Shown here in pieces: positions 4,882 through 34,628 of a DNA stretch of 64,000 nucleotides. Positions within the stretch are counted from its first letter, which is position 1. Each line of letters starts with the position of its first letter. The notes beneath the pieces are model-generated. The model was not told the DNA's origin, made no database searches, and saw nothing but the letters and a program-made list of their open reading frames with translations. Both the position numbers and the translations under genes were made by a program. Source of the stretch: Fructilactobacillus florum DSM 22689 = JCM 16035 (GTDB taxonomy: Bacteria; Bacillota; Bacilli; Lactobacillales; Lactobacillaceae); contig NZ_AYZI01000006.1 in the NCBI RefSeq assembly GCF_001436645.1, positions 1-64,000 on the forward strand, read 5' to 3'.

Positions 4882-5664
4882 TTAGAAGTAGGCCTGATAA
4901 AATAAGACGGCAGCTAACCCAAAAGAAGCTAACGAAATTAGCACTCGTAACAAGGCTACGTTAACGTGTCGAACAATTAAGGGACCACAATACCCACCGA
5001 CCAACAAGCCCAGACCTAAGGGAAGGACTGCCTGCCAGGCAATAGTTGCCTTGAAAATAAATAAGGTTGCTGCCGTAATATTACAAGCGAAGGTCATCAC
5101 ATTTTTTACCGCATTGTAGTGCGCAAAATCCTCTCTAGTAATGACTGCAAGAATTGCTAACAAAACAACGCCACCGGCTGCTCCAAAATAGCCAAGGTAG
5201 CCTCCCACAAAGATAATGCCCAAAAAACTAGCAATCTGAATCCAGCGCCGCCGCCGAGGATGTTGCGCATCCTCTTGCAATCGTTTTTGGGCTCCACTTT
5301 CAGTCCCACGACCAGATAGCAGTAGCACGACTCCGGCAACTAAAATAAAAAACGGTACCACCTTTTCAAAGGTGGTCGCTGGAGCTACCAACAAAAATGA
5401 ACTTCCCAGCAAACTTCCGATAACGGCTAAAATTGTATAGCCAATGACCCGTTTCCACTGACCACGTAGTTCCTTCAACGAAGCTGAAATCGCCCCAACT
5501 CCAGTGAAAATTAAGGCGACCGTATTTGAAACATTGGCAATCACCGGGGGAATCCCAACCAGCAGTAGCGCTGGATAAGATGCCAACGAAGCTAGTCCCG
5601 CAATCGTTGCTAATAGACCAGCCACCACTCCTGCTGCTAGTAAAAATAAAAACTGTCCTACCAT
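4882..5664 (-). CDS. TSUP family permease (TauE/SafE-like)
   Basis: Integral membrane protein of 260 aa with about eight hydrophobic segments in two similar halves, the architecture of the TSUP (sulfite exporter TauE/SafE) family. Members move sulfite, sulfonates or other small organic anions, and the substrate here is unknown. It lies 115 bp downstream of the pox gene, separated from it by a terminator, and upstream of the Met-rich small gene. The ATG start is preceded by a weak GAAGGATGG-type ribosome site. Confidence 0.85.
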   Translation of the reverse strand: MVGQFLFLLAAGVVAGLLATIAGLASLASYPALLLVGIPPVIANVSNTVALIFTGVGAISASLKELRGQWKRVIGYTILAVIGSLLGSSFLLVAPATTFEKVVPFFILVAGVVLLLSGRGTESGAQKRLQEDAQHPRRRRWIQIASFLGIIFVGGYLGYFGAAGGVVLLAILAVITREDFAHYNAVKNVMTFACNITAATLFIFKATIAWQAVLPLGLGLLVGGYCGPLIVRHVNVALLRVLISLASFGLAAVLFYQAYF

Positions 5665-9694: not shown

Positions 9695-10174
9695 TTATTT
9701 ATGATAGGGGCGATGTTGGTTAATCATGAAAGTCCGATAAAGCTGTTCGCACAAAACCACTCTCATTAACTGATGGGGCAACGTCATTGCTCCAAATGAC
9801 AGCGTTGCATCTGCACGCTGCAGAACCGCTGGCGCCAATCCTAAAGACCCACCAATCACAAAGGTTAAATCCGAATGTCCATATGTAGTCAAATTTTTGA
9901 TGGTCGCCGCCAACTCTTCTGATGAATACTGTTTTCCCTTAATCGCTAAGGCAATTACATAGTCGCGCGGTTTAATTTTAGTTAGTAGTCTGATTCCCTC
10001 CTGTTCCATGACCTGTTGTTTTTCGGCAGCACTTAAATTTTCTGGTGCCTTTTGATCGGGAACCTGCATAATTTGAAAATCACAAAATCGTCCCATTCGT
10101 TTTTGGTACTCCTGAATGGCTGCTTGAAAATATTTTTCCCTAATTTTACCAACAACTGCTAATTTAATGTTCAT
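9695..10174 (-). CDS. rlmH: 23S rRNA (pseudouridine1915-N3)-methyltransferase RlmH
   Basis: SPOUT-class methyltransferase of 159 aa that methylates pseudouridine 1915 in helix 69 of 23S rRNA, using S-adenosylmethionine. The conserved knot region FVIGGSLGL and the C-terminal [16 protein letters not shown]...YHK end are intact. The start is set at ATG 10174 because AAAAGGAG sits 7 nt before it and the length then matches the family; a longer reading frame continues upstream into the DnaA-box region but is unlikely to be used. In relatives this gene follows walJ-htrA; here htrA is missing from the interval. Confidence 0.95.
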
Positions 10175-10194
10175 AACTAACTCCTTTTCACAAT

Positions 10195-10506
10195 TTATCC
10201 ACATAGTTATCCACAGGAGGTTGTTCAATTTTATCATGAATCCGGCTTTTGCTGGGACTGTATATTTTTTCCTTTTGTCAACTACTTTTTTAGTTATCCA
10301 CATTTTTAATAACAACATATGTTCGTTAACACAAGAATTATCGCAGCCAAAGCTTGCTACATCAGCATTCTATTTTTTACGGATTTTGTTTCATGAAGTT
10401 ATCCACAATCACTGTGGATATTATTTAAAAGTTATTCACCAGCGAAAAACCTTTTCATCATCGGCTTCTTTATTTTTCACATACTTTATCCACATAGTTA
10501 TACACA
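10195..10506. other. Cluster of DnaA boxes in the rlmH-walJ gap
   Basis: Five perfect TTATCCACA 9-mers at 10195-10203, 10207-10215, 10294-10302, 10399-10407 and 10486-10494. Near-matches are TTATACACA at 10498-10506, TTATTCACC at 10432-10440 and, inverted, TGTGGATAT at 10413-10421. The first and last pairs have the same layout: two boxes 12 bp apart joined by TAG, in the same orientation. The surrounding sequence is A/T-rich. This lies about 22 kb from the dnaA-dnaN origin. The 529-bp gap holds no convincing gene. Confidence 0.85.
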
Positions 10507-10645
10507 GCAATTTCCACCGTACCTATCTGCAGTTCTTTTTTTACCTAATTTTCGACCGATTTTCGCTAACATTGTTCGAAAAGCCACTTTTCCAAACGTT
10601 AATCGTTAACAATCAATAACCCGCTAATACTAAAAAAACTAACAA

Positions 10646-10684
10646 GAAAAAAGCGCTGGGCTTGCCCTTCCTTGCTAGCTGATG
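10646..10684 (-). terminator. Weak candidate terminator of the wal operon
   Basis: On the minus strand, a G/C-rich imperfect hairpin around GGGCAAGCCC is followed by AGCGCT and six T. The stem is poor, so this is only a tentative end for the walRK-yycHI-walJ transcript. Confidence 0.3.
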
Positions 10685-10703
10685 GTTTTGATTGCAAAAC
10701 AAC

Positions 10704-11510
10704 TTATAATTTTATAATCTTTGACGGATGCTCCACATCGGTGTCTCGAAGCTGAAAATCACGTCCAACCCCTAGTCCATTACTCTGCATCATTGATGCC
10801 ACCGTCATTCGTGCTAATGACTTGGTATTATTATGATGACTGCGGTGCGCCAAAAAAATATTTTTGGTTTTTGGTCCCATCACATCCATCAATGCCTCCG
10901 TTCCAGCCACATTCGATAAATGTCCCGTAGCACTGTTAATTCTCATCTTGGTGGAATATGAGTAATCACCGGTCATTAACATTTCCGTGTCATAGTTACA
11001 CTCAAACAAATAAGCATCCGCATTTTGGATGACTCCCTCAATTCGATCCGTAATCGCTCCTGTATCAGTAACAATCACAAAGCTTTTACCATTATGATGG
11101 TAATTGTAAAATTGGGCCTGCGCTGCATCATGCGGAACCGTAAAACTCTCAATGTCCAAATCACCTAATAATTTGGTGGCGTTTGGATCAAAAAGCTGTT
11201 TTTGTTCTATCGGTATCTTGCCAATTTTACCGTCCATCGCACGCCACGTCGCCTGATTAGCATAGACATCCATGCCATATTTACGGGCTAAAATGCCAAC
11301 TCCCTTAGCATGATCGGTGTGTTCGTGCGTCACAAATAAAGCATCCACCTCACGTAGATCTTTTCCAATCGCCTGGAGTAGCCGCTCAATTCGAACTCCC
11401 GATAAGCCTGCATCCTGAATCACTTTGTGCTGAGGCGTTTCAATATACGTACAGTTTCCGCCACTCCCACTCGATAGCACGCTAATTTTTAGATCGTCCC
11501 CGCTTTTCAC
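10704..11510 (-). CDS. walJ: WalJ (YycJ) metallo-beta-lactamase-fold hydrolase
   Basis: Protein of 268 aa with the metal site THEHTDHAKG (HxHxDH) near residue 61 and the further conserved SHHNN region near the C-terminus. This identifies the YycJ/WalJ MBL-fold family, a predicted 5'-3' exonuclease-type enzyme linked to cell-wall and division coordination. The last gene of the WalRK operon; its start overlaps the yycI stop by 4 bp. In many lactobacilli htrA follows, but here the next gene is rlmH after a long non-coding gap. Confidence 0.93.
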   Translation of the reverse strand: MKSGDDLKISVLSSGSGGNCTYIETPQHKVIQDAGLSGVRIERLLQAIGKDLREVDALFVTHEHTDHAKGVGILARKYGMDVYANQATWRAMDGKIGKIPIEQKQLFDPNATKLLGDLDIESFTVPHDAAQAQFYNYHHNGKSFVIVTDTGAITDRIEGVIQNADAYLFECNYDTEMLMTGDYSYSTKMRINSATGHLSNVAGTEALMDVMGPKTKNIFLAHRSHHNNTKSLARMTVASMMQSNGLGVGRDFQLRDTDVEHPSKIIKL

Positions 11511-32429: not shown

Positions 32430-32459
32430 ATGGTCAGCCTCCTAGCTGGGTTTAATTTA

Positions 32460-32597
32460 ATTAAAGTAAAAGACTTAGTAGTAGTAGCAGGACCTGTTAT
32501 TTGTGTTGATAACTAGGTGAATGGTTATTAACTGCACGCGCAGTCCCTGTTGATAACTTTGTGGGTAAACCAGACTAGTTTTTCATAGTTATCCACA
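32460..32597. other. oriC, dnaA-dnaN part: DnaA boxes and DnaA-trio
   Basis: In dnaA's reading direction: TTGTGG-flanked perfect box TTATCCACA (32589-32597 on the plus strand), then two TTATCAACA boxes (32548-32556, 32504-32512). Next come a G/C-rich step and five trinucleotides TAG-TAG-TAG-TAG-CAG (plus strand 32476-32490), then an A/T-only tract (32450-32470). The trio beside an A/T-rich unwinding region matches the basal unwinding system of Firmicutes origins. Confidence 0.82.
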
Positions 32598-32619
32598 AGT
32601 GCATTATATCATTAGGCAG

Positions 32620-33945
32620 TTAATGTTTTAATTCGGTTCGTAATTCAGTGAGTTGTTTTTTTAATTCAGGATCGGTCCCTAACCGTTGACTAACTTTTTT
32701 ACAAGCATTCATCACGGTGGTGTGATCTTTTCCACCAAAAGATTCGCCAATTTTGGGTAACGAATTATCAGTTAGTTCACGGGCGAGATACATTGCAATT
32801 TGGCGAGGTTGCACAATTGATTGGACTCTTTTTTTACCCTTTAGATCTCTGACAGAAACGCTGAAATAAGAGGCCGTGGTCTTAATGATGAGCTCTGGTG
32901 TTAGGGGATTTTTAGTCTGAGTTAATTTAAGTGATCGAAGTGATTCTGCAACTAAATCCATGGTAATCGGCGTTTGTTTTAAGGCCGCATAGGCTTTGAT
33001 GTGCGATAACGCCCCTTCTAGTTCTCGGACGTTTGAGTCGATCTGACCAGCAATGTAACTCATGACGTCGTCTGAGATATCAAGTCCCTCTGATTTGGCT
33101 TTTGCTCGTAAAATTGCAGAACGTGTTTCTAAATCGGGAGCGGTGATATCAACTGATAGTCCCCATTTGAACCGTGAAACCAACCGATCGGTTAGCGAAT
33201 TGATTTCATTGGGGAGCCGGTCAGCTGTCATTACAATTTGCTTATTTTCTTCATATAAAGCGTTAAAAGTATTGAAAAATTCGTCCTGAGTTCCTTCCTT
33301 GTTAGCCAGGAACTGAATATCGTCAACTAGGAGTAGATCAACTTTGCGATAAATACCGCGAAATTCCTGCATTTTATTGTTTTGCAGGGCGTCAATGAAG
33401 TCATTAGTAAATTTTTCGGTCGTAACATACTTCACAACGGCCTCTGGATGGTTAGCGAGGACTTTGTTACCGATGGCCTGCATCAGGTGGGTTTTACCAA
33501 GGCCAACTCCACCATAGAAAAAGAGTGGATTATAGACTTTTCCAGGATCCTCTGAGACGGCTAAAGCAGCCGCATGTGCCATCTGGTTTCCCTGCCCAAT
33601 TACAAAGGTATCAAACGTGTAGTTTGGATTGAGATGGGGATCAGTCACCGGCTTTTGGGTAACCGGTTGCTGGGGGCGTGTCAGCGGTTGGGCGTCACCT
33701 GGCAAGATGGTTTTGGGGGTGATATCTTGATGGGTAATACCGTAGGCATACTCAATAAATGATGAAGTTAAATTACTGTTCCAATAATCTTGGTGCAATG
33801 AGGTAGGCACCTCAATCGTGAGGACCTTTCCGTCAAAGGAAATTGGTTTTGCTGAATCAATCCATGTGGCAAACGTATTATGATCAAATTTAGGGTTTGC
33901 TTTGAATTTTGCTTTGATTTGATTCCAAAGGTCTGTTTCATTCAT
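32620..33945 (-). CDS. dnaA: Chromosomal replication initiator DnaA
   Basis: AAA+ initiator that binds TTATCCACA boxes and melts the origin, 441 aa. Domain I at the N-terminus, a Pro/Gln-rich linker (residues about 85-105), Walker A GGVGLGKTH near 149, Walker B LLLVDDIQF, and domain IV with the signature GGKDHTTVMNACKKV. Start at ATG 33945, with GGAGGACGA before it; the nine-codon upstream extension covers the ribosome site. First gene of dnaA-dnaN. Confidence 0.98.
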   Translation of the reverse strand: MNETDLWNQIKAKFKANPKFDHNTFATWIDSAKPISFDGKVLTIEVPTSLHQDYWNSNLTSSFIEYAYGITHQDITPKTILPGDAQPLTRPQQPVTQKPVTDPHLNPNYTFDTFVIGQGNQMAHAAALAVSEDPGKVYNPLFFYGGVGLGKTHLMQAIGNKVLANHPEAVVKYVTTEKFTNDFIDALQNNKMQEFRGIYRKVDLLLVDDIQFLANKEGTQDEFFNTFNALYEENKQIVMTADRLPNEINSLTDRLVSRFKWGLSVDITAPDLETRSAILRAKAKSEGLDISDDVMSYIAGQIDSNVRELEGALSHIKAYAALKQTPITMDLVAESLRSLKLTQTKNPLTPELIIKTTASYFSVSVRDLKGKKRVQSIVQPRQIAMYLARELTDNSLPKIGESFGGKDHTTVMNACKKVSQRLGTDPELKKQLTELRTELKH

Positions 33946-34000
33946 ACGAAGTCGTCCTCCTAGGAAAAACATAGCCGTAGTTTAGCACGAAAAAAATAAG

Positions 34001-34260
34001 TTTTCCACAGAGGTAATCAGTCTGTGTATAAATGTTTCACATTAGTGGTAAAAGTTTTCCACAAGGGTGTGAATTAAAATCAAGTCCAGGTAAAAAATTA
34101 AGTTTTCAACCACTTGCTGTGGATAACAAAAGCCTGTTATAAATAGTTTTAGACTAGATCTATAAATTTATTAACAACCTGTGGATAAAAATAAATAACA
34201 GCTGTGGATTTGTGGAAAATATTGGGAAAACATTGTTAATATATGCTACAGTTATCCACA
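34001..34260. other. oriC, upstream part: DnaA-box cluster before dnaA
   Basis: DnaA boxes at 34001-34009 and 34055-34063 (TTTTCCACA), 34118-34126 and 34180-34188 (inverted perfect boxes), 34203-34211 and 34211-34219 (inverted one-mismatch boxes sharing a base), and 34252-34260 (perfect). The 487-bp gap between dnaA and rpmH holds these plus the two divergent promoters and no gene. This is the incA/B-like part of a bipartite origin. Confidence 0.88.
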
Positions 34261-34333
34261 GGAATTCACAGGTGTTTTTTATGAAACTTTTTTTAAAGCC
34301 ACGGATTGTGGGCTGTAATCGGAAATTAGTTCT

Positions 34334-34361
34334 TTGCGCAAATTTTGTTTTGTGATATCAT
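34334..34361 (+). promoter_or_regulatory. Promoter of rpmH
   Basis: TTGCGC (34334-34339), 16-bp spacer and extended -10 TGA-TATCAT (34353-34361), about 70 bp upstream of rpmH. Confidence 0.5.
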
Positions 34362-34432
34362 TGAAAGGAAATACTAGTTAGAGTATTAATTAAGCGAATT
34401 AGGTAATCAAAAGAAAGTAAGGAGGGTTTGTA

Positions 34433-34567
34433 ATGAAGCGAACTTACCAACCTAAGAAACGTCACCGTAATCGGGTGCATGGTTTCCGTGCCCGGATGAG
34501 CACTAAAAATGGTCGTAGAGTATTAGCTCGTCGGCGGCAAAAAGGTAGAAAAGTATTGTCTGCATAG
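34433..34567 (+). CDS. rpmH: 50S ribosomal protein L34
   Basis: Very basic 44-aa protein beginning [19 protein letters not shown] and ending RKVLSA, full family length. Ribosome site AAGGAGG lies 8 nt before the ATG. First gene of the rightward rpmH-rnpA-yidC block next to the origin; a hairpin terminator follows, so downstream genes rely on read-through or their own promoters. Confidence 0.98.
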
Positions 34568-34597
34568 ACCACTGATTCTTCGGTGGCCTTTTTTATT
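34568..34597 (+). terminator. Hairpin terminator or attenuator after rpmH
   Basis: Seven-bp stem CCACTGA/TCGGTGG (one G-T pair) with a 4-nt loop, followed by six T, between rpmH and rnpA. Confidence 0.7.
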
Positions 34598-34628
34598 TTA
34601 AACAGACGGTAGTTTGGAGACCCTTTTA

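Follow-up and report, generated by a model that had tools for sequence, protein, structure and literature searches.

A DnaA-box cluster beside rlmH in Fructilactobacillus florum, probably the lactobacillar counterpart of the Bacillus subtilis yydA cluster

Introduction

In Bacillus subtilis the DNA that precedes yydA and lies downstream of yyzF is reported among eight high-affinity DnaA regions, with seven DnaA sites and a Kd of 0.16 uM for ATP-DnaA (PMC4447404, Smith and Grossman 2015), and a review lists yyzF-yydABCD as directly regulated by DnaA (PMC8203912). Removal of six B. subtilis clusters is described as causing early initiation (PMC5295017 and PMC13220808, reviewing Okumura 2012), and we infer that the yydA cluster was one of the six. 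Raising DnaA about tenfold is, however, stated to have left B. subtilis without over-initiation (PMC13220808). Escherichia coli datA is likewise a non-coding, high-affinity DnaA-box cluster away from oriC, which according to PMC5295017 needs IHF and promotes ATP hydrolysis. Boxes are furthermore concentrated near oriC in E. coli, an enrichment read as favouring titration (Olivi 2025, PMC12371093); Bacillus and Firmicutes go unmentioned in that paper. For the neighbourhood considered here, an HtrA review places htrA next to rlmH, near oriC, in several Gram-positives (PMC12826053).

Here we describe a DnaA-box cluster in Fructilactobacillus florum DSM 22689 = JCM 16035 (GCF_001436645.1). The DNA analyzed, called the window below, is the stretch of 64,000 nucleotides at positions 1 to 64,000 of contig NZ_AYZI01000006.1, forward strand. 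The cluster occupies an intergenic region of 529 bp (10175..10703) between rlmH, encoding 23S rRNA pseudouridine-1915 methyltransferase (9695..10174, minus strand; NF000985, E 2.6e-71), and walJ, encoding an MBL-fold protein of the wal operon and named by its position beside walK (10704..11510, minus strand). The RlmH of the window matches B. subtilis YydA (PDB 1to0, E 4e-54). The locus thus shares with the yydA cluster its downstream gene (YydA being RlmH), the number of sites (seven DnaA sites there and seven boxes here) and a place on the oriC side of the chromosome, but differs from it by having lost htrA and by containing a LexA-like site. B. subtilis has six clusters outside oriC, whereas F. 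florum has a single compact multi-box place. As compared to datA the locus is a different one, and unlike the broad regional enrichment in E. coli it is one compact, conserved place. Among the literature matches listed (most subscription papers lie outside the search), none describes conservation of the cluster or a LexA site at rlmH in its title or abstract; apparently new are the spread of the cluster, its independence of both neighbours and the embedded LexA-like site.

Layout of the cluster

Five perfect boxes (TTATCCACA) start at 10195, 10207, 10294, 10399 and 10486, all on the plus strand, and two further sequence matches have one mismatch each. A start-proximal tandem pair is formed by the perfect boxes at 10195..10203 (-29 relative to rlmH) and 10207..10215, joined by a TAG linker, and is followed by perfect boxes at 10294..10302 (-128) and 10399..10407 (-233). 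The latter has an inverted one-mismatch neighbour on the minus strand (ATATCCACA, 10413..10421), and the far tandem pair combines a perfect box (10486..10494) with a one-mismatch box on the plus strand (TTATACACA, 10498..10506), again over a TAG linker. A first-pass annotation made from the letters alone had counted five perfect and at least two near boxes in 312 bp and had noticed two pairs with the same 12-bp spacing and TAG linker; both observations are confirmed (10195/10207 and 10486/10498). Its statement that the boxes lie on both strands holds only through the one-mismatch box at 10413 and fails for the perfect boxes. The box at 10399 and its inverted neighbour (10399-10421) can pair as an 8-bp hairpin (z -2.4), to which we give little weight.

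The gap has a GC fraction of 0.34, as compared to 0.43 in the window. When it was shuffled 2000 times with dinucleotides preserved, perfect boxes occurred on average 0.012 times (maximum 1) against five observed; when up to one mismatch was allowed the mean was 0.22 (maximum 3) against seven observed. The whole genome contains 17 perfect boxes, five in the rlmH-walJ cluster, four at oriC and eight isolated, whereas the reversed box pattern gave four matches. The rlmH-walJ cluster is the only place in the genome outside oriC where more than one perfect box lie close together, and, as an intergenic group of several consensus boxes away from oriC, it has what characterizes a B. subtilis-type cluster. 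As a separate observation, a pyruvate oxidase gene (TIGR02720, 5780-7597 in the window) lies four genes downstream.

Conservation in genus, family and class

Within the genus the start-proximal tandem pair (-30/-42) was found in all nine genomes surveyed and the far tandem pair (about -321/-333) in eight of the nine. A loss of the boxes in close relatives that keep the gap, which the first-pass annotation had set down as speaking against its reading, was thus not seen. Most of the remaining boxes recur in these nine genomes at about -128, -233 and -247 (inverted). Pairwise identity was 74% in box columns as compared to 57% in the columns outside, where some non-box blocks are also invariant.

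For the wider survey we counted a cluster when at least three boxes, each with at most one mismatch, lay within 500 bp before rlmH. The family sample (f1, taken to be Lactobacillaceae, in a class taken to be Bacilli) consisted of 153 genomes from 40 genera, that is 150 of the 151 rlmH-bearing genomes (G266 had no listed place) together with G004, G005 and G008. A cluster was present in 131 of the 153 genomes and in 34 of the 40 genera, as compared to 4 of 3060 shuffled sequences. The reversed control motif never occurred twice or more before rlmH (0/145 family genomes), and at 800-1300 bp upstream of rlmH three boxes were found in one of 145 genomes only, namely G023, whose cluster is displaced.

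Outside the family we sampled 105 genomes of the class, 94 of the 191 rlmH-bearing genomes among those listed plus 11 more; 29 were best matches and 60 were chosen for family spread, with families of divergent RlmH under-sampled. At least three boxes before rlmH were seen in 61 of the 105 genomes and 19 of 39 families, and the reversed motif occurred at least twice in one of 101 genomes and never three times. Among 38 other families, 20 had no sampled genome with three boxes before rlmH. Members of f12 and f30, for instance, are without the cluster in the sampled genomes although their rlmH can lie close to dnaA; because families without the cluster include some of this kind, the class can do without it. 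Among 25 rlmH loci, mostly from Clostridia, there were no perfect boxes and never more than two near matches. One genome from another family of the class (G153, L343, 2586-3141) has ten boxes with at most one mismatch, one reading frame away from rlmH.

Distance from dnaA

The distance between rlmH and dnaA was taken from 97 genomes that carry the two on a single contig, omitting G319 and G346, which are ambiguous at contig ends. Among the 87 cluster carriers the median was 42 kb (range 6-319 kb) and 78 lay within 100 kb; in the window the cluster is about 22 kb from oriC, an oriC-proximal place as expected of a yydA-type cluster. At the other extreme, rlmH lies 1.09 and 1.14 Mb from dnaA in G018 and G322 and has no box before it. 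These two genomes share one genus and are therefore counted as one event; G296, the third surveyed member of that genus, also has no box before rlmH. In G018 the order is walJ-htrA-rlmH, the latter two genes being about 28 bp apart, and among 15 of its 27 perfect boxes, those listed, no cluster was found apart from oriC. A simple rule of distance is contradicted by several families of the class in which rlmH is close to dnaA and the cluster is nevertheless absent.

The neighbouring genes come and go

The order walJ-htrA-cluster-rlmH is frequent in the family (L292, L296, L299 and L330), in agreement with the first-pass annotation, which had given htrA as usual between walJ and rlmH. It had also noted that htrA is missing from the gap; we found no htrA match at E<=1e-20 anywhere in the genome of the window. 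At this threshold htrA is absent from eight of ten genus genomes, including that of the window, and present in G003 and G007, and all eight htrA-less genomes retain the cluster. In G007 the order is walJ-htrA-cluster-rlmH with box positions near-identical to those of the window. Since G007 carries htrA, cluster and rlmH together, the cluster predates the loss of htrA. The suggestion that it arrived upon the loss of htrA, as a replacement for that gene, is refuted by the gene order and near-identical boxes of this genome and by the 131 of 153 family genomes with a cluster.

The other neighbour can be lost as well. In the congener G003, which stands outside the family count of 153, rlmH gave no match at E<=10. 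Seven boxes that repeat the 12- and 74-bp spacings stand after htrA in this genome, together with the GTTAACGAACATATGTT block and TTGACA (L329, G003:C2:16000-30000, 4991-5447). Such a loss of rlmH is unusual, the gene being present in 151 of 151 family genomes.

Fewer than three boxes precede rlmH in 22 family genomes. In nine of these the cluster was located apart from the gene, at 0.5-18 kb or on another contig. It lies beside htrA about 17.5-18 kb from rlmH in G267 and G347, and 1.4-3.7 kb from rlmH in G326, G270, G349 and G300, adjoining htrA in the first three of these, with no htrA in the stretch read for G300. In G276 it is beside htrA on a different contig from rlmH, and in G023 and G327 it is again beside htrA, 0.5-1.2 kb from rlmH, with a short reading frame between or overlapping. 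Two boxes are kept before rlmH in G364, G336, G359 and G258, and none in the three genomes of the genus of G018. In G254, where rlmH is without boxes, two inverted pairs of perfect boxes (L287, 4270-4474) lie on the far side of gyrA and one more reading frame, at about 10 kb from dnaA, and are possibly a replacement cluster. The remaining five genomes (G020, G297, G323, G240 and G306) are below three boxes before rlmH; in G020, G297 and G323 no cluster was found in the stretches read around or upstream of rlmH. That the cluster is often kept through loss of htrA and through loss or displacement of rlmH suggests a function of its own.

Titration of DnaA or control of rlmH

We consider it probable that the cluster is the family copy of an ancient origin-proximal DnaA-box cluster, the yydA locus, serving as a DnaA sink that possibly also represses rlmH. 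The sequence of the cluster, its spread, layout, gene order and location are observed; a shared ancestry with the cluster at yydA in B. subtilis, binding of DnaA, its titration and repression of rlmH are proposed. DnaA would be expected to bind the boxes of the cluster. Since 78 of 87 carriers have rlmH no more than 100 kb from dnaA, the cluster would be copied early in a replication round, and the new binding capacity arising soon after initiation would lower free DnaA and thereby restrain re-initiation. Because the boxes surround a promoter-like TTGACA and the rlmH leader, bound DnaA would probably repress rlmH where this gene is still attached. A DnaA-titration site, one of the functions offered by the first-pass annotation, is hence the best-supported reading, as the cluster stands at the same gene as the yydA cluster and persists without rlmH. 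What weighs against it is that the class can do without the cluster and that tenfold DnaA brought no over-initiation in B. subtilis (PMC13220808).

The boxes could instead be mainly an operator through which DnaA, perhaps with LexA, tunes rlmH, titration being a side effect. We regard this as clearly less probable. In its favour, 120 of 145 genomes have a box no farther than 100 bp from the start of rlmH, a pair at about -30/-42 recurs in several genera, and the listing of yyzF-yydABCD as DnaA-regulated (PMC8203912) points the same way. The TTGACA hexamer (10276..10281, minus strand) is found at -107/-108 and 12 bp from a box in nine of nine genus genomes, frequently with an ACAG-like motif after it, and in 6 of 145 genomes, from three genera, rlmH is preceded by TTGACA-17-TATWGT (reversed control 0). 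In the window, however, no good -10 was recognized downstream of TTGACA, nor was one recognizable in the nine genus genomes, and sigma-70 promoter matches for rlmH in the window were not above chance (two as compared to a shuffle mean of 3.3). Against a main role as operator stand also the retention of the cluster in G003, which has no rlmH, and its stay beside htrA where rlmH has been separated.

A LexA-like site within the cluster

The cluster contains a candidate site, CGAACATATGTTGT (10312..10325, minus strand), which fits 12 of the 14 letters of CGAACRNRYGTTYC, presumably the LexA/SOS-box consensus. GTTAACGAACA is present in nine of nine genus genomes. In the genome of the window CGAACRNRYGTT has eight matches as compared to two for the control: one each before lexA, dinB and a Y-family polymerase gene, one in the cluster, and the other four within reading frames. 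Allowing up to two mismatches, 75 of 145 upstream regions in the family contain CGAACNNNNGTTCG, as compared to 18 for the control, and when one representative was taken per genus the palindrome occurred, again with no more than two mismatches, in 17 of 39, against a mean of 3.4 and a maximum of 8 in 200 shuffles. With the asymmetric LexA consensus the excess in the family was weaker, at 23 vs 6 of 146 with one mismatch and 72 vs 42 with two, and outside the family 2 of 105 matched at one mismatch. The site also appears in 8 of 11 displaced or substitute cluster stretches (0.3-1 kb, a count without control), being absent from G267, G347 and G254. In G248, G249 and G256, for example, it lies after the TTGACA-17-TATWGT promoter.

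These matches raise the idea of a composite stress element in which LexA and DnaA sites act jointly, so that DNA damage would alter the sequestration of DnaA or local transcription. It is favoured by the excess of the palindrome among genus representatives, by the places of CGAACRNRYGTT in the genome of the window before lexA, dinB and the Y-family polymerase gene, and by the persistence of GTTAACGAACA in the genus and of the block in rlmH-less G003. Nevertheless we regard it as rather unlikely, since the window has an imperfect right half-site, the asymmetric consensus shows a modest excess in the family and is scarce outside it, and the displaced clusters of G267 and G347 are without the site.

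Comparison with oriC

The oriC of the window (32430..34613) consists of dnaA with boxes on both sides. Seven boxes with at most one mismatch (three perfect) lie upstream of dnaA and four (one perfect) between dnaA and dnaN, which bears out the claims that the cluster equals oriC in box density and that oriC is more than 20 kb away (about 22 kb). In the dnaA-dnaN gap four TAG triplets follow in a row (32476-32487), a DnaA-trio-like unwinding signature, and within the window a run of four such triplets is found only there. The gap 10175-10703 has no run of four; a single run of three lies there at 10624, with the nearest box 118 bp off, and is one of 16 such runs across the window.

Two further readings put forward in the first-pass annotation, a second loading site for DnaA and a remnant left by an old origin, are thus unsupported and in our view very improbable. 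The box density and an 85% A/T 27-mer, present in the cluster gap and also at oriC, would agree with either, but the cluster is without a DnaA-trio run beside its boxes and is not adjacent to dnaA or dnaN, its one run of three is unremarkable, and the boxes and trios of the oriC at dnaA are intact. A remnant would moreover be expected to decay, yet both tandem pairs are kept in the genus as described above. That the gap is a neutral A/T-rich spacer with boxes there by chance fits its low GC but is practically untenable given the shuffle statistics and the family-wide recurrence of the boxes.

Implications

Titration and regulation of the next gene, as reasons for clusters outside oriC, have so far been hard to separate. 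Evolution partly separates these roles at the present locus, where the cluster outlives the loss of htrA and the loss or displacement of rlmH. Since nowhere else outside oriC in this genome do several perfect boxes lie close together, a single deletion in F. florum might address a question that needed six in B. subtilis. It is also conceivable, if unlikely, that the locus acts in the family as an independent DnaA sink coupled to the SOS response, with LexA and DnaA sharing a conserved element near oriC. If this were true, DNA damage would change the amount of DnaA held at the locus, and the element would be selected whatever genes flank it.
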